Of a stretch of DNA of 64,000 nucleotides, positions 25,760 through 43,978 are shown piece by piece. Under the pieces are notes generated by a model. It had not been told where the DNA came from and did no database searches. It was given only the letters and a program-made list of their open reading frames with translations. The translations under genes were made by a program, and so were the position numbers. The DNA is from Anaerolinea sp. Its GTDB lineage: Bacteria; Chloroflexota; Anaerolineae; Anaerolineales; Villigracilaceae. Location: positions 124,001-188,000 of the forward strand of contig DYID01000002.1 in NCBI GenBank assembly GCA_020723805.1. The letters are read 5' to 3'. How positions within the stretch are numbered: the stretch's first letter is position 1; every line of letters begins with the position of its first letter.

Positions 25760-25776
25760 TGTATCGAGTGGGGCGA

Positions 25777-26640
25777 TTACTCGTATTCCGCCTCTTCAAT
25801 GAACGTTCCGTGCCAGGTGTGCAGGAAAACCTGTCCGCTGTAACCGTTGACGCTCAACATGCCGATAATCTTGCCGTCCTTCTCGAAATCGAGGGTGTAA
25901 TAACCGTAAAATTGGGTCGGGTGTCCGACGGTTGCGCCTGCAAAGTTCGCATCGAGATACTTTTGGGCGTACTCCATCGCCTGTTCGGGCGTGACGGTCA
26001 TCTCGGCAGTGACATCAGCAGGTGCCGCGCTGTTCCAGCCTTGCATCATACCGCCGCCCATCATGCCGTAGCCGCGTCCACCCACACCTGCACTTGCGCC
26101 AGGTGCAAGTGTCATATACTGGTGGTTGAGTCCGCTGTATTTCAGGTTCCACATCATGTTGGGACCGTGTTCGGGATAGGCAGTCTGCGAAACGGGGTCA
26201 ACGAGCAGTTCGAACGCGCCGATGCCCGTGCTGGCTTCCTTGACGATGACATAACCGCCGTTATCGAAGATCATGACCTCGGCGATTTCCAAGTCGGGGT
26301 TGTTGAGATTTGCCAGGTATTTTTCGGCGGCGGCTTTTGCCTGGTCAATGGTCAAGGTAGGGAGGTTGGCGTTGTTGTAGCCGTAGCCGCCCATCATGCC
26401 GGGTCCGCGACCGTTCATCATTCCGCCGTAGCCGCCCATCATGGCGGGTCCGCGTCCGTTCATCATCCCGCCATAGCCGTATTGCCCGGCAGGAGCATAA
26501 CCATTTACGTTATTCCAGCCGAACATCATCGAAGGACCGAAAAAACTTGCGCGGGCGTACATGCTCCCGGCGAAAAAGACGACTGCCGCTGCTGCGATCA
26601 CTGCAAGGACGATCAGGGTTGTGCTTAGAATTTTGTTCAT
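25777..26640 (-). CDS. secreted or membrane-anchored Met-rich PepSY-like protein
   Basis: A 287-residue protein with one N-terminal hydrophobic segment (ILSTTLIVLAVIAAAAVVFFAG) acting as signal or anchor. Residues about 45-90 are rich in Met, Gly and Tyr, with repeated GYGGMMNGRGPxMMGG units. Two PepSY-like units follow, each with a DQAKAAAEKYL or EQAMEYAQKYL helix and a GYYTLDFEKDG-type strand; a second Met cluster (GYGMMGGGMMQGW) lies between them. Methionine-rich envelope proteins often buffer copper or silver. It is the first gene of the operon with regulator, sensor and P-type ATPase. A broken partial copy lies at 41520-41842. Binding function is inferred. Confidence 0.75.
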   Translation of the reverse strand: MNKILSTTLIVLAVIAAAAVVFFAGSMYARASFFGPSMMFGWNNVNGYAPAGQYGYGGMMNGRGPAMMGGYGGMMNGRGPGMMGGYGYNNANLPTLTIDQAKAAAEKYLANLNNPDLEIAEVMIFDNGGYVIVKEASTGIGAFELLVDPVSQTAYPEHGPNMMWNLKYSGLNHQYMTLAPGASAGVGGRGYGMMGGGMMQGWNSAAPADVTAEMTVTPEQAMEYAQKYLDANFAGATVGHPTQFYGYYTLDFEKDGKIIGMLSVNGYSGQVFLHTWHGTFIEEAEYE

Positions 26641-27998: not shown

Positions 27999-28107
27999 CG
28001 CAATTTTACCTGTAAACCCCTTCAATTCTCATCTCCGACTTTGGGCGGAGGTTTGTTTTCTCGCATTGTCCGATGTCGTGGAATGACGGATAGTGCATCC
28101 TACCGAT

Positions 28108-28196
28108 ATGATTTCCTTGGCATTGCCGATGACCAGACCGCTGTCCGCGAGGGATTGGGGATGCGGTTGGCGCTCGAAGCCGATTACCAGAAATAA
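28108..28196 (+). pseudogene. remnant of a response-regulator receiver start
   Basis: ATGATTTC, CATTGCCGATGACCAG and CGCTGTCCGCGA correspond almost base for base to the start of the receiver gene at 42057. A one-base deletion after codon 3 shifts the frame and homology fades after about 85 bases. The non-coding sequence ahead (CTCCGACTTTGGGCGGAGG hairpin, CATTGTCCGATG, GGAATGACGGAT) also matches the region before 42057, showing a block duplication. Confidence 0.7.
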
Positions 28197-28313: not shown

Positions 28314-28384
28314 AAAATCGCTCTTTTTTCATACCGCGATGAGAGCAGGCAGGATTGAAAAACACTCCGCCTGCATGCTACGCT
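28314..28384 (+). promoter_or_regulatory. promoter of the first exoprotein unit with conserved upstream box
   Basis: AAAATCGCTCTTTTTTCATACC begins at 28314. TTGAAA (28355-28360) and TACGCT (28379-28384, preceded by TGC) are 18 bp apart. The same elements with identical spacing occur at 37105-37175 before the second exoprotein. The box may bind a dedicated regulator. Confidence 0.7.
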
Positions 28385-28424
28385 TCGTTTCAGAATAACG
28401 ATTCAAATAGAGAAACGAACAGAG

Positions 28425-28808
28425 ATGGAGAAACGGATCCTAATCGTTGTTTTGGGAAACTCCTTGCTGATGGATAGCGTGGCAAGTAATTTACGGGATG
28501 AACTGGCGTTAACCGTTATGCGGAAGGAGATTTCTTGCATAAACAGCAGGGAACGCTTGAAAGCCATCCAGCCTGATTTGATTATTTTCGAGCTGGATGC
28601 TCCGCGCCCGTGCACCATCTTGTCTCTGCTCAGCGAACAGCCATCTGTTCGTTTAATTGGAATTGACACAAATTGCAGTCGTGTTGTCGAAATTGTGAGC
28701 GCTCTCCATTTCATTGAAAGCCTGACGGAGTTCAACCAACTGATACAGCTCAATTTGACACAAAAGAAGGAGGCGGAAGAAGATGGGAAAAGTCGTGGTG
28801 AAGCGTGA
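28425..28808 (+). CDS. small pseudo-receiver-like protein
   Basis: A 127-residue cytoplasmic protein with the layout of a receiver domain: strand LIVVLGNSLLMD, helix, and LIIFELDAPRP near residue 52, where the phospho-acceptor Asp of a normal receiver is replaced by Glu. The acidic pair after strand 1 is absent (VLGN). No output domain. By eye it is less GC-rich than surrounding genes. It is the first gene after the conserved promoter, 128 bases ahead of the large secreted protein gene, and has no counterpart in the second unit. A phosphorylation-independent regulatory role is possible. Confidence 0.6.
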   Translation: MEKRILIVVLGNSLLMDSVASNLRDELALTVMRKEISCINSRERLKAIQPDLIIFELDAPRPCTILSLLSEQPSVRLIGIDTNCSRVVEIVSALHFIESLTEFNQLIQLNLTQKKEAEEDGKSRGEA

Positions 28809-28936
28809 AGATGAAATCCCACTTTCCCCTGGCTTGTCGAAGATCGTATCCACTCATCAGGACCGTCAACCATTCGTTTTCTTCCTCGGCAAGCCTTGAT
28901 CTGGAAGGTCCTGAAATCACGAATAGGAGAAATAAC

Positions 28937-31900
28937 ATGAAACGCTGGTTTGCCTTTCTAATTTTGTTTGCCATGTTGTGTGCAGTGGTGCCTGCGAATG
29001 CTCAAAACACGGATCCGTATGCATACCAGGTCACACGGCAGCAAGCCGTCCTGTTCGACCAACTCAAGCCGGTGGGGCGTGCAGAGTATTGGAACACCAG
29101 GGAAAATTTCATGGTGCAATTGAGTTTGCAGGACGGCTGGACGGTTACGGAGATACAGCTATACGCGGGCGAGGCGCTGCCTCCCACGAATAAGGCGGGT
29201 CAGCCCGTGATGGGAAAATTCAACTGTGTTCGTACGTATGCAAGCAGGAAACAACAGAACGTTTTGATTCAGTGCAATCTGGATGATGAAATGAATTTCA
29301 CCTGGGGAGGCAACCGCACAATCTATGTGGCTCTTCACGGTGAAATGACACAAATCGCTCCAGCAGGCACAGTTACAACGCTCCAGTCTCGTTCATTTTG
29401 GATGCTGCCGGTCAATGAAGCGGGAGTGCTTCAAAGTTATCTGAAATGGCCCAAAACCAAATGGGGCGGCTACTTTACCACCGTTTTGTACCACCCTCAG
29501 CGCGGTCACTTTATCGATTCGCCGGTGGCAGGCATTACCTATAGGACCCCAACCAACTGGGGAACCACCGACGCCAGCGGTGCTTTCGATTACTTCCCCG
29601 GCGAGCGTGTGGATCTGTGGCTGGGTCCGATTTTCCTGGGCAGCCCGATTGCCGATCAGAAGATTTCCCCGCTGGATATTTTCGCAGGCGCCGATCTGAA
29701 CGATGTCCGGGTTGTCAACATGGCTCGTCTATTACAGAGCATGGATGCCGATGGCGCACCGCAGGCGGGCATCAATATCACTTATGATGTCACTGCCTGC
29801 CTGAGTGCTGCCATGATGGAAATGGACATCAGCGAGGTGGACTTCAGCGATGGCTTCCTCGTGGATGAATTGATCAATACCACCATTGCCCAGTGTGCCG
29901 GCAACACCAATGTAAGCCTGGTCGCCGTTTCGGCAGAGGATGCCATCGCCAACCTGGATCGGTCCACCAATGGCAACATGTTCCGTAAGAACATTTCTCG
30001 AACGCCAAACCTGATCAGTTCCAAATCCAAGTTGGATATCATGGGTGTCTGGTTCCCAGCCCGCAAAGCGGATGGTTCGCCAACCGCCATCGAATACTAC
30101 GATGAGAATGGCAATTTAATCCGCACGGCGATGGATGCGAAACCTATCATTGTGACCTATACGGATAGTGTGCCGGAAACCGGTGCCGAGGATATCTTTG
30201 CCGCGATCTCGCGGGACGATGGTAAAACTTTCAAGCGCGTAAATCTCTCCCGTGCGGCAGATAAATCATCCTTTACCCTGGCAAATGGACAGCCATACTT
30301 TGGCGACGCTAAAAAACCAGTGGTACAGGTCAAAAACAACAATATCCTCGTAGCCTGGACAAGCAAATTCTGCAACAGCGGCAAACCTGCCTACACCATC
30401 AGCCTTGAAGATGACTATATCTATGACGATCCGTATTATCAGGAAGATATTTGGGGCGTGGGCGGTCCGCAGCGTTCTGTGGATTACACCGAGCAAGGTT
30501 TCCCTGAAGTGGGCGAGATTCCCTTCAGTTGTGTCTGGGTGGCGCGCGGCACCATTGTGACACAGGCAATGATCAACAGCGGCGGGTTTTGGGGCAATTA
30601 CCAGGTCGGCGATATCGTGTGGTTTAAGCCCGAACGCTTGACATCCGGGCGGCGTGATGCCAATCAGATTTTTGCCGGAGGCGCAGATGGAGCCGGCTTT
30701 GCCATCGTCTGGCAGGAAGATCCGGAAGGGCTCATGCCCGGCAGCGCAACTGGACCCGGCGAGGGCTGGAGCGGCGCCACTGCCAACCACAAAACGGATA
30801 TCTGGTACAGTTACATCACAATGGCGGATTTCAACAAGGTGGACTTGAACTTTGTAGAAGGTGGAGACCCTCTGCATGACGATTCAGAGATTGTGGGACG
30901 TCCTAAAGCGCTGGTGCCCATGTCCCTGCCTGTCCGCCTTTCTGACAATGATATCGTTTCAACAGATAACATGATGGTCGAACTGGATCCGGTTACCGGT
31001 TACCCGATTACAGACGCCAACGGCAACTGGATCAGAATCAACAACCCGGATGCCGATGGTGACGGCTCGGGCACCCATGCCTACGGCTATATGATTGACG
31101 GGTTGTGCGAAAGTTTCTACGAATTCGTCAATCAACAAGGTGTTTTGAAGAAAGCATGTGTGACTGCTGACCAACGTTTGCTGGACGGCGACACCGGCGC
31201 TTCGCGTCCCAACCTGAACCTGCAAACCTACACCCGGCCGGACGGCACCAAAAGCGCCTGGGCAATTGTTGCCTATGAAGAGACTAAAGGATTGGGCGCA
31301 GGCAATCCGGCGCATACGGGCGAAGGCAGTTACGGCGATGAATATACACCGGAAGAGGGAAAGAACGTCATCTACCATACCTTTGACTTCCGCAACCCCG
31401 ATAAAGTCAGCGCCGGGCACATTGTCAATTTGCCTGAGACGGATGAAAACGGCAATCCCATCTATGTAACCGACGAGAATGGGAACCTGATTCTCGATTT
31501 CCTCGGTAGACCGCAACTTGCATATGAAAATGCCCGCCGTCCGCGCTTTATCATGCAGAGCAAGAGCGCCATGGGACCATCACGGACGGTCATGGTCATC
31601 CTCTATAAGGAAGGTCAAGATGGACAGGGCCGCCCGTCTGACATCATGATGCGGCGTGTGGTTGTGCCTCTCACCGACCGAAGCGTGGATAATCCGTATC
31701 GCTTCTCGAATTTCGTGCCGGGCGCTCAGAACGTAAGTACGGTTACCCCCACTGTTGTCACCGAATCTAGCGGCGATCCTCTCTCCGACGATCCATGGGG
31801 GGCTGTCAAAGTGGTGCGCTGGCAGCAGACCCCGGCCGATTTGAGCCATCGTTCGTCCGCCAATCCCTATGAGGATGCCCGCGCTCACCGCGGCGATATC

Positions 31901-32617
31901 AATGGCGATTTCCTCGTCATCGGTTATACCTACACTCCTAACTGGGCTGCTTACCGCAACGGCAATGACAAATATGACTTCTATGTAAGGCGCTCTTATG
32001 ACGGCGGGCAGACCTGGACGACTGATCCCAATGGCTCTGGCGTTACCCACTGTAACACATTTACCGACCCGCTGACAAAGATAAAAACAGAAGTGTGCAA
32101 CTACTATGGACCAGGTCAGTTCGAACAGGCGCGCAATGTCTCCCGCCTGCCCAATAACAAGATGAGCGTCATCGAGCCTCGCATCGTCGGCACGCCGGGA
32201 ACCATTAAGAATCCGGATGGTTCACCCACGGGAAAACCTGAGGATATCAACAACCCGAATGTGTTCTACCTAAGTTACGGCACCGCCAACAATGTACCCA
32301 CCGACCTTGAAGATGAAGATGGCGAATATGCCACCCCGATGGATCTTTTCTACAGTTTCACCACCAACCTGGGTGAGAGCTACGTGGAGACGGCTTGGGA
32401 AGTCAATCCTGACAGTACTGGCAACCATGCCGGTGAAATCGTGTACCGCTGGGCTTCTCTGGCAATTGGCGATGCGCAACAAGGTGAAGCGCAACTGCGC
32501 ATGACGCCAGATGGCTCCCGTTTCTATGCAACCTGGCTGGAGGAAGGCAGCGAAGGCAGCGACATTCACTTCCGCCGCATCATGAGCCTGCTGTTCCCCA
32601 ACAATGTAGCCCCTTAG
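28937..32617 (+). CDS. large secreted protein with Asp-box (BNR) motifs, copy 1
   Basis: A 1226-residue exoprotein with a signal peptide (KRWFAFLILFAMLCAVVPANAQ) and ribosome binding site AGGAGA. Asp-box-like motifs SRDDGKTF near residue 415 and SYDGGQTWTT near 1020 suggest a beta-propeller of the sialidase fold. A central motif WQEDPEGLMPG, GPGEGWSGA near residue 595 is shared with the paralog at 37328, as are ARGT, VWFKPERLTSG and GQFEQARN. The first 300 residues (RQQAVLFDQLKPVGRAEYW onward) are not obviously present in the paralog. No sortase signal or terminal anchor was recognised. It resembles uncharacterised large surface proteins; enzymatic or binding role unknown. Confidence 0.8.
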   Translation: MKRWFAFLILFAMLCAVVPANAQNTDPYAYQVTRQQAVLFDQLKPVGRAEYWNTRENFMVQLSLQDGWTVTEIQLYAGEALPPTNKAGQPVMGKFNCVRTYASRKQQNVLIQCNLDDEMNFTWGGNRTIYVALHGEMTQIAPAGTVTTLQSRSFWMLPVNEAGVLQSYLKWPKTKWGGYFTTVLYHPQRGHFIDSPVAGITYRTPTNWGTTDASGAFDYFPGERVDLWLGPIFLGSPIADQKISPLDIFAGADLNDVRVVNMARLLQSMDADGAPQAGINITYDVTACLSAAMMEMDISEVDFSDGFLVDELINTTIAQCAGNTNVSLVAVSAEDAIANLDRSTNGNMFRKNISRTPNLISSKSKLDIMGVWFPARKADGSPTAIEYYDENGNLIRTAMDAKPIIVTYTDSVPETGAEDIFAAISRDDGKTFKRVNLSRAADKSSFTLANGQPYFGDAKKPVVQVKNNNILVAWTSKFCNSGKPAYTISLEDDYIYDDPYYQEDIWGVGGPQRSVDYTEQGFPEVGEIPFSCVWVARGTIVTQAMINSGGFWGNYQVGDIVWFKPERLTSGRRDANQIFAGGADGAGFAIVWQEDPEGLMPGSATGPGEGWSGATANHKTDIWYSYITMADFNKVDLNFVEGGDPLHDDSEIVGRPKALVPMSLPVRLSDNDIVSTDNMMVELDPVTGYPITDANGNWIRINNPDADGDGSGTHAYGYMIDGLCESFYEFVNQQGVLKKACVTADQRLLDGDTGASRPNLNLQTYTRPDGTKSAWAIVAYEETKGLGAGNPAHTGEGSYGDEYTPEEGKNVIYHTFDFRNPDKVSAGHIVNLPETDENGNPIYVTDENGNLILDFLGRPQLAYENARRPRFIMQSKSAMGPSRTVMVILYKEGQDGQGRPSDIMMRRVVVPLTDRSVDNPYRFSNFVPGAQNVSTVTPTVVTESSGDPLSDDPWGAVKVVRWQQTPADLSHRSSANPYEDARAHRGDINGDFLVIGYTYTPNWAAYRNGNDKYDFYVRRSYDGGQTWTTDPNGSGVTHCNTFTDPLTKIKTEVCNYYGPGQFEQARNVSRLPNNKMSVIEPRIVGTPGTIKNPDGSPTGKPEDINNPNVFYLSYGTANNVPTDLEDEDGEYATPMDLFYSFTTNLGESYVETAWEVNPDSTGNHAGEIVYRWASLAIGDAQQGEAQLRMTPDGSRFYATWLEEGSEGSDIHFRRIMSLLFPNNVAP

Positions 32618-32648
32618 CATTGATGAAAATAGTGACAGGTTGAACTGA

Positions 32649-32678
32649 CGCCGGAGGCACCTTACCTCCGGCGTTTTT
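32649..32678 (+). terminator. intrinsic terminator after exoprotein 1
   Basis: CGCCGGAGG CACCTTA CCTCCGGCG followed by TTTTTGTTT, 31 bases after the stop codon. Confidence 0.9.
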
Positions 32679-32689
32679 GTTTAAAGTCG

Positions 32690-33034
32690 CTTCCATCGTC
32701 CCCTTATAAACACAAGCATCCATGTGTTGTGTAACCGCTTGCGTTGGAATTCGTCTTGAAAACGAAATGGACGGCAACAAAAAATAAACGCTGGCGCCTT
32801 TTGCAAGCCCCAAAAAAGCCTTTGCATAGCACGTCAAGCCGGCGGTAGAGACCGTCGGGTACACTTCTGGAAAATCTTTGCACCAGAGCAAAGTACAGGA
32901 CAATCAAGATGCCTGCTTGTAAATATGGTAATAATGGCATACAATGAAATTTAAGATTAATGTCAAACATAAGGTTTTGGAGCAGGACAGTAAGCGAATC
33001 TCCTCAACTTACTTGGGACCCGGCGTTATTAACC
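32690..33034. other. intergenic region, nothing recognised
   Basis: About 345 bases without a convincing ORF. A minus-strand frame (32970-32704) encodes an unlikely composition and lacks a ribosome binding site. It contains the palindrome-like CACATGGATG/CATCCATGTG region near 32712. Confidence 0.5.
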
Positions 33035-33036
33035 AT

Positions 33037-33169
33037 ATTACGCGGTAGCGCAGCATTCTTACCCTGAGCTGGCAGGTTGAGCCTGTCGAAACCCTGTCGA
33101 AGGGTATCTCGTAATTTCGGGCGACATAAATGTCACCTTACGAGAAAACTGCGTAACATCAGTTATTAA
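33037..33169. repeat. family D interspersed element with nested insertion, copy 1
   Basis: Begins TTACGCGGTAGCGC and ends ACTGCGTAAC. Internally GCGACATAAATGTC is kept, but the first hairpin loop holds an extra element CCTGAGCTGGCAGGTTGAGC-type with CCTGTCGAAGGG. Compare 33171-33262, which lacks it, and 41327-41455, which has it at the same place. Confidence 0.8.
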
Positions 33170-33170
33170 T

Positions 33171-33262
33171 TGATGTTACGCGGTAGCGCGAGATTCATCT
33201 CGCGTTTTCAGGCGACATAAATGTCGCGCTACGAAGGAACTGCGTAAGGTGAGTTATTAATT
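33171..33262. repeat. family D interspersed element, simple copy
   Basis: TGATGTTACGCGGTAGCGCG at the left, hairpins GCGAGAT TC ATCTCGC and GCGACAT AA ATGTCGC inside, and CGCGCTACG...GCGTAAGG at the right, with GTAGCGCGA pairing to TCGCGCTAC across the whole element. It abuts the start region of the sensor kinase gene. Confidence 0.85.
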
Positions 33263-33312
33263 GAATGCACCCAGGCAGTATAAGGTTCATGCTATTGGGA
33301 GTAGCAAACAAA

Positions 33313-36306
33313 ATGAACGATCTGCTGAATTTCATCCTGTTGTTGATAAGCCAGTTTGCCGGCGGTACCGGGCAAATGGAGAACAACCTGGTTCGTTTCA
33401 GCATTCCGGCAATCACCTACGGTGCGCTCCTCTTGGTTGCTTGGTCCCGGCAGCGGGAATCCCATCCACAGCGTGAAAAATTGTTGGTGTGGGGATTTGG
33501 ATTGGGGGCAGCCAGCGCCACGATCATGTTCATCTTTGCGGCGGTGCAGATCCTGAATCTCATTGAAAGAGAAACGGCATACCCCATTCTGGTCCCTGTG
33601 GAGCGGGCGCTTTCCATTGCGTCGGTCGTGGTTGTTGCAGGGGCGTTTCTCCGCTACATTTTGGATGATGCACGTCTGGCGCGCACCTACATCCAGGTGG
33701 GGATAAGTATCGCGTTCATCAATCTGATGTTTGCCCTGTGGCAATGGCCCCTCCAGCTTGCCGTATTGAGAGAAGAACAATTTCACCGCTCCTGGATTTC
33801 TTGGCTCTTTCAGGCTTCTGCCTCTGTAATGATTGTCACAGCCATCATTTTGGTCAGAAGAAAAAGCGGCTGGCTTGCCAATGTGGTTACCGTTGCATTG
33901 ACTTTTTTCCTCCTGGGTGAACTCCTGTTCATTACAAATTATCTGACAGATAAAGTTTACAACCGCACCATTTGCCCCATCGGCAATCTCTTTTCCATTC
34001 TTGCCACCCCGCTTCTAGGATACGTTTACCTGCGCGAGATGTCCATCGAAAGAAAACAGGCGCAAAAAGCCCTCGATGACTACCGCCTTCATCTGGAAGA
34101 GCTTGTCTCCGAACGTACCGCCGAGTTGTCCTCCGTCAACGATCAACTTATTGATGAGATAGCCGAGCGCAAAAAGGCAGAAGAGGCGCTGACCCAACTC
34201 AGCCATCAATATGAGCTGATTTTGGAATCGGCAGGCGAAGGAATTTGCGGGATCAATGACCGCGGGCGGTTTGTTTTTGTCAACTCGGCGGCGGCGCGAA
34301 TGCTGGGATACGAGGCAAATGAACTGATCGGACAGCACTGCCGCATTCTCTGGCACAATAACGAAACGAAAGATGCCTTCCTTCCCGAAAGCGAGATACC
34401 CATATACAAAGGATATGCAAACGGCATTCCCAGCCGCGGCGACGATCAGGTCTTTTGGCGCAAGGACCACAGCGGGTTTCCAGCCTCCTACGTCAACACC
34501 CCCACTTATGAAAACCACATCCTGACAGGTTCGGTATTGGTTTTCAAGGACATCTCCGAACGCAAACAGGCAGAGATCGAAATTACGCGGCGCAACGCCA
34601 ATCTGGCAGCGCAGAACGCCATCGCATCAGCCCTCAGCCGCTCACTGGACCTCGAGATCATTCTGAACACTGCGCTGGAGGCGGTGCTCTCCATCGTCAA
34701 CATGGACGCGGGTCTTATTTTTCTCTGGGACTCTACAGCCGATGAACTCACCCTGCAATGTCACCACGGCTCGGTTCTGCAAAACCCACACGGCGCCTCT
34801 TTGCAAGAGTGGGATTGCTGTAAAATGATCTCCCGGGAGGCAATGAAAAATTTTGGGGTACTGGTCAAAGCCGTATCCGAATGCCCGGCTGCGGGCGAGT
34901 CATCCCTGATTGTGAGGGAAGGGCTGCAAACACTTGTCAGCATACCTCTCGTATCAAACAACAAGGCTCTGGGCGCATTAACTCTCGCATCCCGAAAGAC
35001 AGCCTCCATTCCCCAGCATGAATTGGAATTGCTGGGCATCATCGGTCAACAGATTGGCATGGCGGTGGAAAACGCCAACCTCTACCGTACAGCGGAGCGT
35101 GTGGCGGAAGAATTGACATTGCTCCATCAAATCAGTACGGTTTTGGCGTCCACGCTGAATTCCGAAAAGATCTACGAACAGATCGTAGTGCAGTCTGTCA
35201 AACTTCTAAACTGTGACCTGGTATGGATTCTGGATTGGGACCACGAAACCCAAAGCGTCAAGGTTCTCGCCAGTCATGGTATGACTGAAGCGGAAAACAA
35301 ACTTCTTAAGAACCGGCAGGAAACGGTGGACTACCTGCGCGAACTGATTGCCCGCCGTGAAGCGATTATGATCGGAGATGCCCAAACGGACGCCCGCATT
35401 CCCGATTTCTTGAAAAAGGCGCTTGATCTGCGGGCAATTTTTTGCGTTCCCATCCAAAGCATGGATGAATCCTTTGGGTTGCTCTTCCTGATGGATCGGC
35501 GGACTGCACAGCGCTGGCGCTACGAGCAAATTGTACTGGTCGAGGCGTTCGTCAACCGGGCAGCGGTGGCGTTGATGAACGCCCGCCTTCACAAACAACT
35601 CGAATGGGCAGCCGCATTGGAAGAACGTCAGCGCATTGCCGCCGATATGCATGACGGCTTGGGACAGACCGTCAGCCTGCTCGGCTTACAGATTGACAAT
35701 GCCATGGAATTGATTTCATCGGGGGCGGAGCAACAGGCGGTTACAGAATTGAAGATGACCCGCGAAACCGTCCGCCAGGTTGCTGTAGAAGTGCGACGCT
35801 CGATTGCCAGTTTACAGCGAACTCCGCAACCCCTCCGTTCCATCCAGGAATTGTTACTCGAATTGCCGGAGAAGACCCCCCGCGCAGATTCTCCCTCGAT
35901 CCAATTCGACTTCAAGCTCACCGACCCCTTGTTCCTGCCGCAGGAACAGGGAAACCAGGTCATGTTTGTCATGCAGGAAGCGCTTCTCAATGCCCAGCGG
36001 CATGCCCACGCCCGGCAAATTACCCTTACACTGGATGCCCAGGAACATGCCATTCGAATTTCTGTGGAAGATGACGGCGTAGGCTTCGAGCAGGGAGCAT
36101 GGTGGGAGACCAGCCAGAATCATTTTGGCTTGGGCATCATGCATTCCCGGGCGGCTCGCATTGGAGCAGATTTACAAATCGATTCCGTGCCAGGACACGG
36201 CACCCGCGTGACCCTCATCCTGCCGCAAGGCAATGGCAAATATTTTGACAGATTTTCCCACACGCCCCTTTCCCAAAATTCACTCAGACAAGGAATGCCG
36301 CAATGA
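33313..36306 (+). CDS. hybrid-input sensor histidine kinase (7TM-PAS-GAF-GAF-HisKA_3), NarL type
   Basis: A 997-residue kinase. Residues 1-250 hold about seven membrane helices. A coiled coil (EELVSERTAELSSVNDQL) leads to a PAS domain near 300-415 (GICGINDRGRFVFVNSAAARMLG), then two GAF domains near 440-585 and 600-755. The dimerisation/phospho-acceptor motif AADMHDGLGQTVSLLGLQ with His near residue 780 is of the HisKA_3 type, and the HATPase has EALLNAQRHAHA and DDGVGF...GLGIMHSRA. ATG 33313 has GGGAG upstream; earlier in-frame ATGs at 33265 and 33289 run into a repeat. The stop overlaps the regulator ATG. It is encoded between the two exoprotein genes. Confidence 0.88.
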   Translation: MNDLLNFILLLISQFAGGTGQMENNLVRFSIPAITYGALLLVAWSRQRESHPQREKLLVWGFGLGAASATIMFIFAAVQILNLIERETAYPILVPVERALSIASVVVVAGAFLRYILDDARLARTYIQVGISIAFINLMFALWQWPLQLAVLREEQFHRSWISWLFQASASVMIVTAIILVRRKSGWLANVVTVALTFFLLGELLFITNYLTDKVYNRTICPIGNLFSILATPLLGYVYLREMSIERKQAQKALDDYRLHLEELVSERTAELSSVNDQLIDEIAERKKAEEALTQLSHQYELILESAGEGICGINDRGRFVFVNSAAARMLGYEANELIGQHCRILWHNNETKDAFLPESEIPIYKGYANGIPSRGDDQVFWRKDHSGFPASYVNTPTYENHILTGSVLVFKDISERKQAEIEITRRNANLAAQNAIASALSRSLDLEIILNTALEAVLSIVNMDAGLIFLWDSTADELTLQCHHGSVLQNPHGASLQEWDCCKMISREAMKNFGVLVKAVSECPAAGESSLIVREGLQTLVSIPLVSNNKALGALTLASRKTASIPQHELELLGIIGQQIGMAVENANLYRTAERVAEELTLLHQISTVLASTLNSEKIYEQIVVQSVKLLNCDLVWILDWDHETQSVKVLASHGMTEAENKLLKNRQETVDYLRELIARREAIMIGDAQTDARIPDFLKKALDLRAIFCVPIQSMDESFGLLFLMDRRTAQRWRYEQIVLVEAFVNRAAVALMNARLHKQLEWAAALEERQRIAADMHDGLGQTVSLLGLQIDNAMELISSGAEQQAVTELKMTRETVRQVAVEVRRSIASLQRTPQPLRSIQELLLELPEKTPRADSPSIQFDFKLTDPLFLPQEQGNQVMFVMQEALLNAQRHAHARQITLTLDAQEHAIRISVEDDGVGFEQGAWWETSQNHFGLGIMHSRAARIGADLQIDSVPGHGTRVTLILPQGNGKYFDRFSHTPLSQNSLRQGMPQ

Positions 36307-36980
36307 GCAAGACTCGCGTACTGTTGGTGGACGATCACGCCTTATTCCGCGATGGGCTGGCTAGGATTCTCAACAGCCAGATAGATTTCGAGGTCGCCGG
36401 TGAAGCGAAGAACGGGCTGGAAGCCATTGCAGAAGCACAAAGACTCCAGCCGGACCTAATTCTGATGGATGTCGGCATGCCCGTCTGCGATGGACTGGAA
36501 GCCACGCAAAGAATCAAACAGGAATTCCCCAACGTGACAATCGTCATGCTGACCGTCAACGATGAAAGCGAAAAACTTTTTGAAGCCATACGCAATGGCG
36601 CCCAGGGATACCTCCTGAAGAGTATCCAGCGGGAGGAGATGCTTTCCCTCCTGCGAGGGGCAATGCATGGCGAGGCGGCAATCACCCCGTCCATGGCTGG
36701 ACGCATGCTCGAAGAATTCCGCCGCCTGGACCGCCATCCCTCGCTTGCACTGGATGAAAAACATCCCATTCTCACATCCCGCGAAAAAGAAGTGCTGGTG
36801 CTGGTCGCATCGGGCGCCTCCAACAAAGAGGTGGCAGAAAAACTCAATGTCAGCATCCATACCGTCAAAAGCCATATCCGCAAAATCCTGGATAAATTGC
36901 ACCTTACCAGCCGGCACGAAGCCGCTTCATTCGCCCAGCGGGAGGGATTGATCCCGCGCTCCAGAAAAGACGCAGTCTAA
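36303..36980 (+). CDS. NarL/FixJ-family response regulator
   Basis: A 225-residue regulator: receiver with LLVDDHALFRDGL near residue 8, phospho-acceptor Asp in LILMDVGMPV near 56, and LLKSIQREEML near 108; C-terminal LuxR-type helix-turn-helix LTSREKEVLVLVASGASNKEVA near 158, then HTVKSHIRKILDKLH. ATGA overlap with the kinase gene makes them a cognate pair. The conserved box upstream of both exoprotein promoters is a natural candidate target, which is inference. Confidence 0.92.
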   Translation: MSKTRVLLVDDHALFRDGLARILNSQIDFEVAGEAKNGLEAIAEAQRLQPDLILMDVGMPVCDGLEATQRIKQEFPNVTIVMLTVNDESEKLFEAIRNGAQGYLLKSIQREEMLSLLRGAMHGEAAITPSMAGRMLEEFRRLDRHPSLALDEKHPILTSREKEVLVLVASGASNKEVAEKLNVSIHTVKSHIRKILDKLHLTSRHEAASFAQREGLIPRSRKDAV

Positions 36981-37040
36981 AGATTTACCCTCTATCGAAT
37001 ACGGCATACAGCCGCCCGGCTGTTCAACTATATTTCCCCA

Positions 37041-37068
37041 AGAGCGATGAAACATCGCTCTTTTTTTG
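37041..37068 (+). terminator. intrinsic terminator after the sensor-regulator pair
   Basis: AGAGCGATG AAA CATCGCTCT followed by TTTTTTTG, a 9-bp stem 60 bases after the regulator stop. Confidence 0.92.
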
Positions 37069-37104
37069 TGCAGGATTAGCCCGTTTGCAATGATGGGCGG
37101 CGGC

Positions 37105-37175
37105 AAAATCGCTCTTTTTTCATACCACGACGGTGACGGGCAGGATTGAAAAGCATCCTGATGACATGCTACGCT
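37105..37175 (+). promoter_or_regulatory. promoter of exoprotein 2 with conserved upstream box
   Basis: AAAATCGCTCTTTTTTCATACC starts at 37105, TTGAAA is at 37146-37151 and TACGCT at 37170-37175 with TGC extension and 18-bp spacing. Distance from box to -35 is 41 bases, the same as at 28314. The leader to the ATG is about 145 bases. Confidence 0.7.
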
Positions 37176-37327
37176 TGATACAGCCCAGGCATCTCCCTGC
37201 CTCCGCTGCAATTGGAATCTTGCAGGGAATCGGTTTTCATAAACTCCCAACACGAGGAGGTGCATTCTGGACTGGAACCCATTTTCGCCCCATAACCCGA
37301 TTGTCATCCGGAAAAGGAGAGTACAAC

Positions 37328-40300
37328 ATGAAACAAAAAATCTTCAAGATATTCTGTGTGATGATCCTAATCGGCATTACCGCTACCACTGCCTTTGCCG
37401 ACGATGGACCCATTGTCAGAAAAAACATTTCCAGCACTCCAGACTACGACACAGAATATGTTTCCACACGCATGCTTCCTCTATACGTACCGGCGCAGAC
37501 CTCCGCCGGCGTGCTGGATACAGACGGCATCCCCTACTACAATGCCGATGGCGTGCTGGTAAAAACCCTCTACTACGCCCAGCCCTTGATCGAATCCTAT
37601 CAGGATGGTCCCGTTACATTCATTGACGATCCAGCCTATGAGGCTTTCCCCGGTCATGGCGCAAGAGATGCCTATGTGGCAGTCAGTCTCGATGACGGGT
37701 TGACTTGGAAGCGGACCAATATCTCGAACTCCGCCAAACGTTCCTCGATTCGCATCAACGGCAAACCCTATCCGGGCGACACGTTGCGGAACTTCCTGGC
37801 ATCCGACGGAAATAAGGTGCTCTTCGTATGGGCGAGCAAGTATTGCGGAAGCGGCAGCCCCGCCTATGCCATGACAGATACAGAACGATCAGCCTTGGCG
37901 ACCTACCTGGCAAGCACAGGCACGATCACAGACGCCGCCGCCTGTACCGATGGCGACCCGCTAACCCCCTGCCCCTACTTGGAAGATGCCTTTGGCGTGG
38001 CAGGGTCGCAGGGCGTGCAAAGCGCCGCTGACCTCGCGGAGGAAGGATACCCCCTCGTGGGCGATTACCCCTACTCCTGCCTTTGGGCGGCGCGCGGCGT
38101 GCTCCTGCCGCCAGCCGCTACCGGACGAACAACCAGCACTTTCGTCTGGTTCAATGCTGAACGCCTGACTTCCGGTGTCCGCAGTGCAGACCGCGCCGAA
38201 GCCGTGTGTGTCAAAGGCGCCGGGTGCGCTGTAATCTGGCAGGAAGACCCTGAAGGCGTGCGTCCCGGTGAAGGCGATGGACCCGGTGAAGGCTGGAGCG
38301 GCGCTGTCGCTCATCACCAGACCGACACCTGGTATTCTTTCATTGACTGGGACGACTTCGACCTTGTCAGCGGCGACGGCACATACGGCACTTTCTATGG
38401 CACTGATCTCACCACCTCCGGCGCCAGCCTCGCAGCGTATGTGGCGGCAAACCCCACCGGCAGCCCCAAAGCGGCTGTGCCCATGTCCATCCCCATGCGT
38501 GTGACCGACAACGCCATGTGCACCGCCAACGACAGCGACCCCTATTGTTACATTGACTTCAACGGAAACGGCACGCCCGATCTTTGCGCCAGCACGGTCA
38601 ACGTCACCATCGAAACTCCTGAAGGACCCACTCAGGATGTGGATATGTGCGTTGCCGAAGACGGACGCCTGATGCGCGGCAACACCGCCTCCACCCGCCC
38701 CCGCCTCAGCCTGCACGGATATTCGACAGCCGGTCCATTCGACCGTACCCAGCCCGACCGTTACCCCATCAACAGCGCCTGGGTGTCCTTCTCTTATGAA
38801 GAGAACAAAGGTCTTGGAGACATCTGCGATGACGGCGACTGCGACATTCTGACCGACGCCGACAAACGCGATATGGGCAAGAACATCTGGTATCACACCT
38901 TCGACATGTTCAAGCCCGAACTCGTCTCGCAGGGCATGATGCTCAACCAGCCTGCAACCTATCCCCAAGATTGGTCGGACCCAACCGGTTTGCTGGAGCA
39001 GGATACCTCCTTTGGCTATAACTTCTGGAAGTTCAAGGAAGACCCGATCTACAACACCTTGGCGGGTCTCACAACCACCACACTCTACCAGACGGAAATC
39101 GCCCGTCGTGCAAGTCAGGTGACACAGGACTGGTATGACGCGGGAGTAAACGGTACAGTTGCTTTCAATTTGTGGAAGCAGGGCATCATCCGCCGCGGCG
39201 GTCCCGCAGATGTGATGGGCAGGCGTTGGAAAATCCCGCCAGCCTGTCCGCTGGATGCCAATGGCAACGTCCTCGATGATGGAACCTGCTTCAACGCAAC
39301 TGTGGACAACCCCTACGATTACCATAACATGGTCTGTGAAAATGCCGATAATACGTCCGGCTGGGCGTATCGCACAGACCTCGGTCAACCGTCGAACCCG
39401 CGTTATGTGAAAGGCTTCTGTGCCGCGCCGGCGATTAACCTCTCAGGCACAACAATTCTCAGCGGCGATACCTGCACCGACGCCGCCTCCTGCCTCGACG
39501 CCTTCCCCTTCAATGATTACTTCGACGACCTCGCCATGGAACAGGGGACCGGCATCAGCAAAATTCTCACATGGACCATGCTCGGACCGAACTACGGCGA
39601 AGACCCCACCCCCGCAGACACCTCCCTCACCAGCCTCGATGATCCATCCTGGGAGAATCCCTATGACATGGCAAAGGGTCATCGCGGTTTCCTGGCAGGC
39701 GACATGGTCATGATCATGTATGCCTGGACCAACAACTGGGACGCCCTGACCGAAGGACATGACATCGTCAATCTCTATGCCCGGCGCTCCTTCGACGGTG
39801 GTCAAACCTGGACCACCCTGCCCGCCAACTTTACACATACCTCCCCGGCAGGGTACGCATACCTCGACCCAACACTGGGAACCACCTACCACGGCGACGG
39901 AACCTTCACTTGCGAGTTCATGGGACCCACCGGTGGAACGACCGAATACCCGGTCTGCAAGAGTTATGCCGCTGGAGAGTTCGAGCAGGCGCGAGACCTT
40001 TCCCAGCTTACAGGGTCATCCGTCACTGTTCTCGACCCGCGTTACGCCCCCACAACCCGCAGCATTACCACTGCATGGGTGACCACTGCCTCCCTGCCTG
40101 CGGGCTTTACCGCCCCCTGTGATGGCGTCACTGACTGTGCGTATGATGACACACGCGATCCTTCACACTTCCACATGGTCTTTGAAACCGGCATTACCAG
40201 TGCCTATGACGAAGGTGAGGCGGAGCCGCTCGACCTCTTCTACAGCCGCGCAGTGAACTGGGGCGATGACTATCTGGTGTGGCAGGAGGAGACAGATACC

Positions 40301-41086
40301 AGCCTCTGCCTGCCCGGCCTCATCACCGACAGTGCGGGCGTTTCGGGTCTCTTCTGCAATGAATTCGATGCACTGGAAGGAAGCCAGTTCTCCATCTCTT
40401 CCGAAGCGTCGCTGGTATCGAGCCCGGGCGGTCAATTCCTTTATGCAGGCTGGTTTCAGGAAGACTTCGATGTCCGCACGGGAGCAGAAATTGGCATTGA
40501 CGCCTGGTTCCGCCGAATTATGTACCTGGACGGTTATATTCCCGGTGACGACGGCGGAAGCGGTCCAGTGAACACCGCGCCCGGTCCCAAAATTCTGAAC
40601 CCCGCAAACGGCGCGACGTTCATTTTGGGCGTCCCCATTACATTCTCAGGCACCGCCACCGACGCAGAAGATGGCGATCTGACCACCAAATTGATTTGGA
40701 CATCCAACTTGGACGGGCAGATTGGCACAGGCGGTTCATTCACCCGGACCTTGAGCCTCGGCGCCCACACCATCACCGCCTCCGTCACCGACTCCGGCGG
40801 ACTCACCAGCAGCACTGCCATCAACGTCACGGTTGTGCAGCCTCCTTTCAATTTGAGCGTCACCACCAGAGTCGTCAAGACCAACAAATATGCCGACTTG
40901 ATTTGGAGCGGTCCCCTTTCCGTCAATGTGGACGTTTACCGGAACGGTCTGCTCATCGTCACAACGCCAAACGACGGCTCCTATACGGACAAGCCTCCCA
41001 AAACCACCACCTCAGCCGTTTACAAAGTCTGCCTGGCGGGAACAACGACCTGTTCCAATGCAGTAACCGCCGTTTGGACAAAGTAA
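37328..41086 (+). CDS. large secreted protein with Asp-box motifs and C-terminal Ig-like domains, copy 2
   Basis: A 1252-residue paralog of the protein at 28937, with signal peptide KQKIFKIFCVMILIGITATTAFA and GGAGAG upstream of ATG 37328. Asp-box motifs SLDDGLTWKRTN near residue 122 and SFDGGQTWTT near 820 flank the shared WQEDPEGVRPG, GPGEGWSGAVAHHQTD near 307. Unlike copy 1 it has many cysteines, perhaps disulphides, and adds two C-terminal domains: an Ig/PKD-like unit (ILNPANGATFILGVPITFSG, near 1095-1170) and an FN3-like unit (VDVYRNGLLIVTTPNDGSYT). These suggest surface attachment or polymer binding. Enzymatic role not evident. Confidence 0.8.
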   Translation: MKQKIFKIFCVMILIGITATTAFADDGPIVRKNISSTPDYDTEYVSTRMLPLYVPAQTSAGVLDTDGIPYYNADGVLVKTLYYAQPLIESYQDGPVTFIDDPAYEAFPGHGARDAYVAVSLDDGLTWKRTNISNSAKRSSIRINGKPYPGDTLRNFLASDGNKVLFVWASKYCGSGSPAYAMTDTERSALATYLASTGTITDAAACTDGDPLTPCPYLEDAFGVAGSQGVQSAADLAEEGYPLVGDYPYSCLWAARGVLLPPAATGRTTSTFVWFNAERLTSGVRSADRAEAVCVKGAGCAVIWQEDPEGVRPGEGDGPGEGWSGAVAHHQTDTWYSFIDWDDFDLVSGDGTYGTFYGTDLTTSGASLAAYVAANPTGSPKAAVPMSIPMRVTDNAMCTANDSDPYCYIDFNGNGTPDLCASTVNVTIETPEGPTQDVDMCVAEDGRLMRGNTASTRPRLSLHGYSTAGPFDRTQPDRYPINSAWVSFSYEENKGLGDICDDGDCDILTDADKRDMGKNIWYHTFDMFKPELVSQGMMLNQPATYPQDWSDPTGLLEQDTSFGYNFWKFKEDPIYNTLAGLTTTTLYQTEIARRASQVTQDWYDAGVNGTVAFNLWKQGIIRRGGPADVMGRRWKIPPACPLDANGNVLDDGTCFNATVDNPYDYHNMVCENADNTSGWAYRTDLGQPSNPRYVKGFCAAPAINLSGTTILSGDTCTDAASCLDAFPFNDYFDDLAMEQGTGISKILTWTMLGPNYGEDPTPADTSLTSLDDPSWENPYDMAKGHRGFLAGDMVMIMYAWTNNWDALTEGHDIVNLYARRSFDGGQTWTTLPANFTHTSPAGYAYLDPTLGTTYHGDGTFTCEFMGPTGGTTEYPVCKSYAAGEFEQARDLSQLTGSSVTVLDPRYAPTTRSITTAWVTTASLPAGFTAPCDGVTDCAYDDTRDPSHFHMVFETGITSAYDEGEAEPLDLFYSRAVNWGDDYLVWQEETDTSLCLPGLITDSAGVSGLFCNEFDALEGSQFSISSEASLVSSPGGQFLYAGWFQEDFDVRTGAEIGIDAWFRRIMYLDGYIPGDDGGSGPVNTAPGPKILNPANGATFILGVPITFSGTATDAEDGDLTTKLIWTSNLDGQIGTGGSFTRTLSLGAHTITASVTDSGGLTSSTAINVTVVQPPFNLSVTTRVVKTNKYADLIWSGPLSVNVDVYRNGLLIVTTPNDGSYTDKPPKTTTSAVYKVCLAGTTTCSNAVTAVWTK

Positions 41087-41326: not shown

Positions 41327-41455
41327 TGATGTTGCGCGGCAGCGCGAGATTCTTGCCTGAGCTGGCAGGTTGAGCCTGTCGAAACCCTGCCGAAGGGCAT
41401 CTCGCGTTTTCAGGCAACATAAGTGTCGCGCTACGAAGAAACTGCGTAAGGTGAG
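41327..41455. repeat. family D interspersed element with nested insertion, copy 3
   Basis: TGATGTTGCGCGGCAGCGCG...ACTGCGTAAGGTGAG, with the CCTGAGCTGGCAGGTTGAGC element inserted in the first hairpin loop, as in the copy at 33037. The element lies in the 3' read-through of the Met-rich pseudogene. Confidence 0.85.
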
Positions 41456-41519
41456 CAGTAAAAAAAGCAAGCGGCAGTCATTCTTGCAGGGCAAAGTGAC
41501 TGCCGCCTTTGTGCGAAGA

Positions 41520-41842
41520 TTACTCGTCTCCGCCTCTTCGATGAACGTTCCGTGCCAGGTGTGCAGGAAGACCTGTCCACTGTAACCGTTGACGCTCAAC
41601 ATGCCGATAACCTTACCGTCCTTCTCGAAATCGAGGGTGTAATAGCCGTAGAACTGGGTCGGGTGTCCGACGGTTGCGCCGGCAAAGTTCGCGTCGAGGT
41701 ACTTTTGGGCGTATTCTATCGCCTGTTCGGGCGTGACGGTCATCTCGGCGGTGACATCAAGACGTGCGGTATTGTTCCAGCCTTGCATCATGCCGTAGCC
41801 GCGCCCGCCCACACCTACACTTGCGCCAGGTGCAAGTGTCAT
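41520..41842 (-). pseudogene. truncated duplicate of the Met-rich PepSY-like gene
   Basis: From TLAPGASVGVGGRGYGMMQGW to HTWHGTFIEEAE the translation matches the C-terminal third of the protein at 25777-26640 with few changes. The N-terminal two thirds, including signal segment and Met repeats, are absent. At the original stop a small deletion changes GAATACGAGTAA to GAGACGAGTAA and shifts the frame past the stop into downstream repeats. No ribosome binding site or export signal remains. Confidence 0.8.
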
Positions 41843-42056
41843 GTTGTCTGGAAAGCCCTGTCCACTCCCAAAAAGTTCATAGAGGAACGCGCGCGCTGTC
41901 TGTACCGTCAGCTTGCCCACAATACCATTGACCAATGTCACGCGCGCCGGTGAGTGATAACCCTGCGTCTTTTCCCATCACCTCCACCGAAAGACGGAGG
42001 TTTGTTTTCTCCCATTGCCCGATGCCACGGAATGACGGATCGGGCATACTACGAAT

Positions 42057-42437
42057 ATGATTTCACTTGTCATTGCCGATGACCAGCCCGCTGTCCGCGA
42101 AGGCTTGCGGATGAGACTATCCATCGAAGCGGATATGCAAATTGTCGGCGAAGCGCAGAACGGCGTGGAAGCGCTCGAAGTGACCACACACCTGCACCCT
42201 AACATCGTCCTCATGGATTTGGAAATGCCCCACATGGACGGTCTCGCGGCAACGAGGGCGCTCCAGTCGCTTGCGCCGGAGTGCTGCGTCATCCTGCTGA
42301 CCATTCACGACGATGAAACGACGCGCAAGCGGGCGCGTGAAGTGGGCGCGGCGGGGTTTGTGTCCAAACACGCGGATGATTCGGTTTTGCTGGACGCCAT
42401 TCGCGCGCTGGCGGGTCGGTTGGAAAACAAGGATTGA
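42057..42437 (+). CDS. stand-alone receiver-domain protein (NarL-type)
   Basis: A 126-residue single receiver: SLVIADDQPAVREGLRMRL near residue 3, phospho-acceptor Asp in NIVLMDLEMPHMDG near 54, the switch Thr in LLTIHDD and Lys in FVSKHADD near 104. It stops where a LuxR-type output domain would begin in NarL proteins. It may be a CheY-like mediator or a truncated regulator. A CTCC...GGAGG hairpin and AT-rich sequence precede it, matching the degraded copy at 28031-28196. It is followed by a small YrdB gene nine bases later. Confidence 0.85.
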   Translation: MISLVIADDQPAVREGLRMRLSIEADMQIVGEAQNGVEALEVTTHLHPNIVLMDLEMPHMDGLAATRALQSLAPECCVILLTIHDDETTRKRAREVGAAGFVSKHADDSVLLDAIRALAGRLENKD

Positions 42438-42446
42438 AAGGCTGTC

Positions 42447-42803
42447 ATGTTGTCAACACTGAAATGGTTCAATGTCGGATTACGCGCCCTCATGGAATTA
42501 GGCATTATCATCGCGCTTGGGTATTGGGGATACAAGGCTGGTGAAAGCGCGAGCGCAAAGATATTGCTTGCCGTTGGCGCGCCGCTGTTGGGCTTTGGTT
42601 TTTGGGGTCTCGTTGATTTTCGCAAAGCAGGTTCGCTGGCGGAGCCTCTGCGATTGATCCAAGAACTGGTCATTTCAGGATTAGCCGCGCTGGCATGGTA
42701 TGCCGCGGGCGCGCAGGCATGGGGCTGGGCGCTGGGTGCGGCTTCGATTGTTCATCATGTATTGGTGTATCTGTTGGGAGAAACTTTATTGAACCGCAGG
42801 TAA
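42447..42803 (+). CDS. YrdB-family (DUF2568) small membrane protein
   Basis: A 118-residue protein with about four transmembrane helices: WFNVGLRALMELGIIIALGYWGY, ILLAVGAPLLGFGFWGLVDF, LIQELVISGLAALAWYAAG and SIVHHVLVYLLGE. The N-terminal NxGLRxxxELxxxxxxGYWG pattern is that of YrdB/DUF2568. Function unknown. A paralog is encoded at 57130-57468. It lies between a stand-alone receiver and a serine hydrolase gene, each separated by under ten bases, so cotranscription is likely. Confidence 0.85.
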   Translation: MLSTLKWFNVGLRALMELGIIIALGYWGYKAGESASAKILLAVGAPLLGFGFWGLVDFRKAGSLAEPLRLIQELVISGLAALAWYAAGAQAWGWALGAASIVHHVLVYLLGETLLNRR

Positions 42804-42808
42804 GAAAC

Positions 42809-43978
42809 ATGAAGACATTTCTCAACATTCTCCTGGCTTTTATCGCGCTGTTTGTATTGCTCTTTCTTCTCACATCTCTCGCGGCAGGACCCGATACAGC
42901 CTTCCGCATGGCGTATTACAACCTCACAGACATTGACGACTACAAACTGTTCCCCGCGCGGAAACTCATTGCCAGCAGCGCGCCTTTTCGTTTCGAGCAA
43001 AGCGATGACCCCTTGCGCGTTCCTGCGCCCATGGAAGGGGAGCCGCTTGACCAGATTCTCGAGAATCAGCGCACCGCCGCCTTCCTCATCATCAAGGATG
43101 ACACAATCTTGTACGAGCGTTACTTCGGCGGATACAGCGCCTCGACCCCCGTTCAGGTTTTTTCGGTGGCGAAATCATTGTTCTCCATCCTCGTCGGTCG
43201 CGCCGTGGACGATGGCTACTTTAGCGTGAACCAGCCCGTCACGGATTTTGTCCCCGAACTCGCGCCGCGCGGCTTCGACCGCGTGACCATCGAACACCTG
43301 CTTCAAATGGCATCGGGATCGAATTACAGACAGACGGGCTTCGATGAACTCAGTCCGTTCAGCCTGCACCCGCGCTTCGAGTATTCGCCGCGATTGGAAA
43401 AGGAAATTACAACCACACTCAAAATCATTGACGAACCAGGCACACAGTTTATCTACAAGTCTGGCGATACCGCGTTGTTGAGCCTTGTCCTCACGCGCGC
43501 TCTGAAAGACAAAACAATCACCGAATACATGCAGGAGGCGATCTGGACTCCGCTGGGCATGGAATTCGACGGCTACTACACCCTTGATCACGCCGGCGCG
43601 GATGCTCTCGAAAAGACCTGGTGCTGTCTCGCCCTGACCGCGCGTGATCTCGCCAAATTTGGGCGGCTCATGCTGGAGGACGGGAATTGGAACGGGACAC
43701 AAATCATTTCAAGCGCCTGGGTGAAAAAATCCATTCAGGTTGACTCGAACGATCCTCGTGACTTCGGCGAATTTGGATCCATTCCTGGCTTTCGCGGTTA
43801 TCAATATCAATGGTGGCTGGCTTCCCAGGACGAGGCGTATTATGGCAACGGGCATCTGGGTCAGTTCCTTTACGTCAACCCTGCGAAGCGCATCATCATC
43901 GTCCGTCTGGGGCGCGTTGGCGACGAGCCGCAGGATTGGCTGGGGCTGTTCAACGATCTTTCTCAAAACATTCATTGA
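42809..43978 (+). CDS. membrane-anchored serine hydrolase, beta-lactamase class C fold
   Basis: A 389-residue enzyme of the beta-lactamase/penicillin-binding protein-like family. An N-terminal hydrophobic segment (FLNILLAFIALFVLLFLLTSLA) anchors it outside the membrane. Nucleophile motif SVAKS (SxxK) lies near residue 120, YKSGD in place of the YxN motif near 216, and GHLGQ (HxG) near 348. Such proteins act as esterases, amidases or peptidases on cell-wall or small substrates; antibiotic resistance cannot be inferred. ATG 42809 is chosen for the anchor and the close junction to the preceding gene. Confidence 0.87.
   Translation: MKTFLNILLAFIALFVLLFLLTSLAAGPDTAFRMAYYNLTDIDDYKLFPARKLIASSAPFRFEQSDDPLRVPAPMEGEPLDQILENQRTAAFLIIKDDTILYERYFGGYSASTPVQVFSVAKSLFSILVGRAVDDGYFSVNQPVTDFVPELAPRGFDRVTIEHLLQMASGSNYRQTGFDELSPFSLHPRFEYSPRLEKEITTTLKIIDEPGTQFIYKSGDTALLSLVLTRALKDKTITEYMQEAIWTPLGMEFDGYYTLDHAGADALEKTWCCLALTARDLAKFGRLMLEDGNWNGTQIISSAWVKKSIQVDSNDPRDFGEFGSIPGFRGYQYQWWLASQDEAYYGNGHLGQFLYVNPAKRIIIVRLGRVGDEPQDWLGLFNDLSQNIH

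Follow-up and report, generated by a model that had tools for sequence, protein, structure and literature searches.

Two choice-of-anchor O exoproteins around a sensor kinase and its regulator in an Anaerolinea genome, and their putative pairing

NarX/NarL-type two-component systems associate a HisKA_3 kinase bearing a HATPase domain with a regulator made of a receiver and a GerE domain. A pair of this composition lies between two giant exported proteins, exoproteins 1 and 2, in the stretch of DNA analysed here: 64,000 nucleotides of an Anaerolinea sp. genome (contig DYID01000002.1, positions 124,001 to 188,000 of the forward strand), hereafter the window, whose own numbering is used throughout. 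The pair differs from NarX/NarL-type systems by its sensor part—seven hydrophobic segments, a PAS and two GAF domains—and by the addition of a stand-alone degenerate receiver gene and of the exoprotein neighbours; neither the kinase nor the regulator reached the NCBIfam cut-offs for NarX, NarQ and NarL. As to the small receiver, its structural model matches the CikA pseudo-receiver and the FrzS receiver (Z 9.6 and 9.8 respectively); by contrast with these, the window protein is stand-alone and has no Pfam match, and its gene stands, in the cassette described below, between a regulator and an exported cargo.

The exoproteins belong to a family already named, NCBIfam NF040591 (choice-of-anchor O), and so are not new in this respect: exoprotein 1 (expectation value, E, 9.5e-182; 606.1 bits) and exoprotein 2 (E 1.1e-189; 632.4 bits) are well over the cut-off of 125 and cover nearly the whole length of the model. 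The description of the model gives no function, and it covers neither the clade pair nor the kinase cassette nor the leader presented here; the literature searched for the family gave nothing on function. An earlier reading, made from the sequence only, had seen no described equivalent of this architecture.

The finding itself is real and partly explained: it associates a known, uncharacterised family, an ancient heterotypic pair and a dedicated three-part regulatory cassette. We consider it rather probable that this is a sensor-controlled island, in which the kinase and the regulator would control two units with matching leaders, and the exoproteins, one of clade A and the other of clade B1, would be complementary partners. 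All genes are on one strand, in the order small receiver, exoprotein 1, kinase, regulator, exoprotein 2; they were called with a longest open reading frame (ORF) script rather than a gene finder, and signal peptides with a hydropathy rule (aa, amino acids; bp, base pairs).

28314-28385, + strand: leader 1, 72 bp, preceding the genes of the small receiver and of exoprotein 1
28425-28808, + strand: small receiver, stand-alone and degenerate, 127 aa; the cassette's third component
28937-32617, + strand: exoprotein 1, choice-of-anchor O, clade A; ATG start, 1226 aa; signal peptide-like start and long N-terminal extension, a feature of clade A
29963-32614, + strand: conserved core of exoprotein 1: by prediction a sialidase-type beta-propeller carrying large insertions
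33265-36306, + strand: sensor histidine kinase, 1013 aa; PAS, GAF, GAF, HisKA_3, HATPase_c (Pfam)
36303-36980, + strand: NarL-type response regulator, 225 aa; Response_reg (1.9e-29) and GerE (3.3e-18) by Pfam
37041-37065, + strand: hairpin AGAGCGAT/ATCGCTCT then a T-run, in the gap between the regulator and exoprotein 2
37105-37176, + strand: leader 2, upstream of exoprotein 2, aligned with leader 1
37328-41086, + strand: exoprotein 2, choice-of-anchor O, clade B1; ATG start, 1252 aa
40541-41083, + strand: C-terminal Ig-like region of exoprotein 2 (Big_7, E 4e-4, below cut-off)

Clades, pairing and fold of the exoproteins

The distribution of the family is patchy: 16 of the 396 genomes of the class match it (13 over the cut-off), 3 of 61 genomes of relatives (2 over the cut-off, own genome counted) and, among the 18 genomes of the genus, only the window's own. 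In genome contigs a scan found 136 relatives; the 76 distinct loci kept come from taxa including Anaerolineae, Desulfobulbaceae, methanotrophs, purple sulfur bacteria, Wenzhouxiangella and Clostridiales. A plasmid origin was rejected, as tblastn of the exoprotein 2 core against 72,556 plasmid records gave no match at E<=1e-5.

In a maximum likelihood tree built by a quick method from 85 cores and rooted at its midpoint, exoprotein 1 belongs to a clade A of 20 rows set apart from the rest, and exoprotein 2 to a subclade B1 of 11 rows, both with a Shimodaira-Hasegawa-like approximate likelihood ratio (SH-aLRT) support of 100; the program warned of long branches for L064, L066, L074 and L082, the join of L074 being possibly false. 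Clade A carries an N-terminal extension, of 328-453 aa in 15 of the 18 rows uncut by contig ends and of 141-158 aa in the other three. The window proteins share 31% identity over 1103 columns (pairwise alignment, E 8e-113) and are indeed paralogs of one family; on the evidence of the tree, however, they are not the twin copies first described but members of two old clades, A and B1.

A clade A gene shares the locus of nine of the 11 B1 rows, but of one only of the 54 other B rows (Fisher 1.7e-8, a test taking rows as independent, while L014/L015, L010/L011 and L013/L016 are close relatives). These nine are the window, L009, L010, L011, L013, L015, L016, L063 and L014, the last being counted by virtue of an adjoining 212-aa piece identical to the clade A protein of L015; L012 has no companion, and L017 begins close to the end of its contig. 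The single other B row with a clade A neighbour, L028, is on the contig of L013. The two genes are directly adjacent in six loci (L009, L010, L011, L014, L015 and L063), A first and then B1, on the same strand; L011 belongs to Desulfoprunum benzoelyticum DSM 28570. Within the tree set, exoprotein 2 is most similar to a row from Desulfobulbus (a bin; 78% over 534 columns) and exoprotein 1 to one from Anaerolineaceae (66% over 728 columns), which we read as movement from one phylum to another, the pair being re-assorted on the way.

Pfam gave no family over its own cut-off for either protein: the announced Asp-box motifs do correspond to a BNR/Asp-box match, but at 16.6 and 19.8 bits for a cut-off of 27, and of the announced Ig/FN3-like domains there is, in the C-terminal part of exoprotein 2, a weak Big_7 match (21.3 bits, cut-off 24.1), with no FN3 family listed. 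C-terminal tails vary among family members, exoprotein 1 stopping directly past the core; the choice-of-anchor name refers to variable C-terminal anchoring. The difference in cysteines is true—6 in the core of exoprotein 1 and 24 in that of exoprotein 2—but the counts range from 1 to 30 in clade A and from 7 to 37 in B1, so that a gain in one copy does not follow.

The AlphaFold2 model of the core is nearly all beta (63 sequences; predicted local distance difference test, pLDDT, 86.3; predicted template modelling score, pTM, 0.89). With VIA-align it matches Neu2 (Z 13.8, 304 residues, 6.3 Å) and the rhamnose-glucuronate lyase 7esk (Z 13.4, 357 residues, 4.0 Å); the top rows lie together near Z 13-14, sialidases being level with lyases and other propellers close, with ranges spanning the core. 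From this model, the core may be read as a single sialidase-type propeller with large insertions: the matches to beta-propellers of the sialidase superfamily (Neu2, NanA; PL24, PL25, 7esk) span the whole core, which has 884 residues whereas those chains have about 350-420. GH33 sialidases are six-bladed propellers with a catalytic Arg triad, an Asp and a Tyr/Glu pair. In the 63-sequence alignment, 62 charged, polar, Trp or Tyr positions are conserved at 95% at least (29 of them invariant), and 43 positions with other residues are equally conserved. Both window exoproteins retain all of the 62, and this points to a strongly constrained site in each of them.

The kinase, the regulator and the small receiver

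The description of a seven-transmembrane PAS-GAF-GAF kinase with a NarL-type regulator, surrounded on one strand by exoproteins of 1226 and 1252 aa, agrees with ORFs and Pfam. A simple hydropathy scan places the seven hydrophobic segments of the kinase between residues 42 and 254, with an eighth, weak peak at 469-487 inside the soluble part. The 127-aa ORF at 28425-28808 and the paired upstream elements had been overlooked. This small protein has no match in NCBIfam and none in Pfam at E<=10, PF00072 included. Its model (pLDDT 71, four sequences) nevertheless shows a receiver fold (BaeR, Z 11.2, 98 residues, 2.5 Å), and receivers make up most of the best 50 rows of structure matches; Foldseek alone gave no match at E<=0.001. 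Receiver domains hold an acidic pair and a phospho-acceptor Asp. By eye, the consensus of the small-protein family has G.S at the place of the acidic pair and keeps the phospho-Asp, while the window protein lacks the pair and has a Glu at the phospho-Asp position.

In L025, L024, L019, G062 and G230, the gene directly before that of the exoprotein encodes a homolog of the small protein. In L024 and L025 this homolog comes after homologs of the window kinase and regulator (for L025, kinase 43% over 972 aa, regulator 52%, small protein 36.6% over 123 aa; for L024, regulator 64%, small protein 27% over 85 aa). The order kinase, regulator, small protein, exoprotein is also that of G062, where the contig ends inside the kinase (kinase part 53%, regulator 69%, small protein 43%), and of G230, whose exoprotein is cut; the exoprotein of G062, which is outside the tree, has the clade A extension by match (37.5% over 317 aa). 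G386 holds the kinase, the regulator, the small protein and, where its contig stops, the beginning of a secreted ORF; in G337 the genes are split, kinase and regulator sharing a short contig, small protein and exoprotein lying on another. The cassette of kinase, regulator, small protein and exoprotein is thus kept in several genomes of the class.

Counting the window's own genome, 7 of the 396 in the class have a full-length homolog of the sensor (E 3.1e-59 or better); sensor and exoprotein share a contig in four of them (G000, G377, G394 and G230), and in the remaining three the sensor is on contigs of 5.8 kb at most. Among the 76 family loci, two (L024 and L025; blast E<=1e-3) have a homolog of the sensor part; L019 has a kinase homolog on a separate contig of the same genome, and other loci have different signalling genes nearby. 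The dedicated sensor supposed by the sequence-only reading is supported by the recurrence of the cassette (L024 and L025; G062 and G230, each with one gene cut; partial in G386, split in G337) and by the same leader on both units. Most relatives, however, lack this kinase, an observation which that reading had itself named as counting against it. The sensor is dedicated as far as contigs tell, and most family members live without it.

Relatives of the small protein extend to 40 of the 396 class genomes, own included. We examined 47 loci, 7 exoprotein cassettes and 40 others, the weakest and some second hits being left out; the script found 43 hits in 41 of them and none in 6. A NarL-type regulator is upstream on the same strand for 27 of the 43 hits. 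The downstream ORF, visible in 24 of these, looks secreted in 18; among control ORFs this is so for 34 of 165 (Fisher 2.5e-7; for L024 the ORF in this count is a script-chosen one of 76 aa). Once the four exoprotein cassettes are subtracted, it looks secreted in 14 of 20 (counted from the listing). For the 16 hits without upstream regulator, the window's included, the ORF is visible in 14 and looks secreted in 5. Relatives of the small protein are found in comparable cassettes whose exported protein is a different one; within the papers and words covered, the literature searched gave no description of such a cassette.

Besides, LuxR-type regulators lie upstream of clade A genes in L009, L062 and L074 (Desulfobulbus and Desulfuromonas bins), and by eye their N-terminal part resembles a degenerate receiver.

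Leaders and hairpin

Leaders 1 and 2 are 82% identical and have no other strong match in the 3.69-Mb host genome (next E 0.55). Both contain TTGAAA-N18-TACGCT, promoter-like by eye. The motif ATCGCTCTTTTTTCATACC is found twice in the window with <=3 mismatches, for 0.02 expected; GGCAGGATTGAAAANCA, from another part of the element, is found twice for 0.8 expected, which alone is not significant.

The hairpin GAGCGAT-loop-ATCGCTC followed by a T-run occurs once, in its strict form, in the host genome, and promoter-like hexamers lie 3' of it (by eye). Among 250 loci, overlapping in part, it is present in five distinct places (window, L019/G337, L024/G377, G062 and G230), all ahead of the choice-of-anchor O family, before the exoprotein or its small gene. 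We take it as the terminator of the regulator gene, as an operator, or as both. That it would be general to all cassettes was rejected: other cassettes have different stems or none. In window 20000-46000, two Rfam microRNA matches far below their cut-offs were taken as chance, and an RNA element was not retained.

Proposed working of the island, alternatives and surroundings

In the reading that we favour, the membrane kinase would signal through its NarL-type regulator, and the latter would bind the leaders and act on two units, one formed by the small degenerate receiver and exoprotein 1, the other by exoprotein 2. As partners of the old A and B1 pair, the exoproteins would act jointly outside the cytoplasmic membrane, where they may touch each other or share a target; their propellers of sialidase fold could, possibly as enzymes, address an extracellular polymer or a surface ligand, and a redox-linked role is conceivable since relatives are often tied to c-type cytochromes. 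The sensor standing beside both exoproteins, and the matching DNA upstream of each, suggest this common action outside the cell. As a guess, the small receiver might modulate the regulator independently of phosphorylation.

Several points weigh against this reading, to which the kinship of rows behind the first Fisher test must be added. Clade A is often found without B1, since only 8 of the 20 A-bearing loci hold a B1 row, and in L013 and L016 the genes between A and B1 are others than this kinase pair. The GAGCGAT stem was not found in L025 and G386, and in G255 a related sensor is followed by a different, CheY-like protein. As for the fold, the Foldseek superposition of the core is poor (TMq 0.10-0.24 among the rows listed), and no PDB sequence matches the core at E<=1.

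We propose, more tentatively, that across Anaerolineae the three-protein cassette—HisKA_3 kinase, NarL-type regulator and degenerate receiver—may be an interchangeable control for large exported proteins, each cargo lineage having its own hairpin or operator, where the receiver, encoded directly ahead of the cargo, would gate the regulator or couple it to export, and of which the window version would drive a two-partner complex through matched promoters. If the cassette holds up, it offers a route to exported proteins under direct sensor control in the class, and a new setting for the stand-alone degenerate receiver. A family that had a name but no function gains a context open to testing: its members form a heterotypic pair, with a signal input of their own and a candidate operator, and are recurrently linked with cytochromes.

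This last link was considered from the neighbours of the family. Near genes (within two genes, 132 of 197) and far genes (at least five away, 148 of 296) were random picks from genes of 110-1300 aa, near duplicates (L013, L054, L049, L018, L061, L051 and the window) being dropped. Near genes include FG-GAP (12), BTAD (11), cytochrome b (8), Response_reg (7) and GerE (4), which are not among the 25 families of the far list, a list ending at single members. PAS_9 is found 8 times near versus 2 far and GGDEF 6 versus 2, for 132 versus 148 genes and with the kinship of loci uncorrected; cytochrome c7 goes the opposite way, 2 near versus 5 far genes, several far genes being parts of the same long cytochrome operons.

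Seven Anaerolineae loci (L019, L020, L029, L032, L035, L051 and L068) associate the family gene with cytochrome b, Rieske, 6-heme, 12-heme and 22-24-heme proteins, and six of them, L019 excepted, with an FG-GAP protein; with Pfam run on one representative of each neighbour, this operon resembles one for a respiratory complex that has an extracellular conduit. Two CXXCH motifs are present, at differing positions and spacings, inside the family proteins of L010, L011, L015, L063, L050, L052, L066 and L076.

The exoproteins might accordingly be partners of c-type cytochromes in respiration or extracellular electron transfer, a possibility that we hold doubtful, though better than the two that follow. 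It draws on the many Anaerolineae loci with FG-GAP, cytochrome b, Rieske, 6-heme, 12-heme and 22-37-heme proteins, on the eight members with two CXXCH, and on a one-CXXCH protein standing next in L031, L033, L040 and L043 (PKD by Pfam, L040 only). But neither window copy has a CXXCH, and the multiheme genes found in the host are on other contigs (C27 and C5), so that a cytochrome operon in the window's own system was rejected; besides, 12-heme homologs (E<=0.001) occur in 59 of the 396 class genomes, whereas the family is over its cut-off in 13.

The sequence-only reading saw in the exoproteins two forms of a surface system, switched by a single sensor; they would be interchangeable, one on while the other is off. 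One kinase and one regulator between two paralogs, whose N- and C-terminal parts differ, would fit such a switch. We find it improbable: the leaders are alike, the conserved residues are complete in both copies, and the two clades recur as neighbours with A before B1, as expected of partners. Two different old clades, with nine B1 rows in 11 beside clade A across phyla, favour a working pair over two switched forms, and suggest that A and B1 work jointly outside the cell rather than as versions of each other.

That the kinase pair came beside the exoproteins merely through rearrangement of a variable island deserves equally little credence: a family confined to one genome of the genus, a syntenic place without the island in G014 and duplicated fragments on either side would fit it, but the order of the cassette is conserved in other genera and the hairpin is seen only there.

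G014, of the same genus, is collinear with window 41982-47260 at 84-89% DNA identity; the 16-kb piece examined has no match to the exoprotein island except to a short receiver remnant at 28033-28184, and the genome has no match to the family. The island is flanked by duplicates, 25775-26115 versus 41518-41842 (88%, part of a Met/Gly-rich gene) and 28046-28184 versus 41995-42134 (83%, the 5' part of a receiver gene, left-truncated), which suggest an insertion or a segmental duplication; a clean insertion event was not retained, as these fragments give no one simple story. Finally, a 68-bp repeat is found at 33106-33173 and 33197-33264, right before the kinase gene, and again at 41399-41466, after exoprotein 2.

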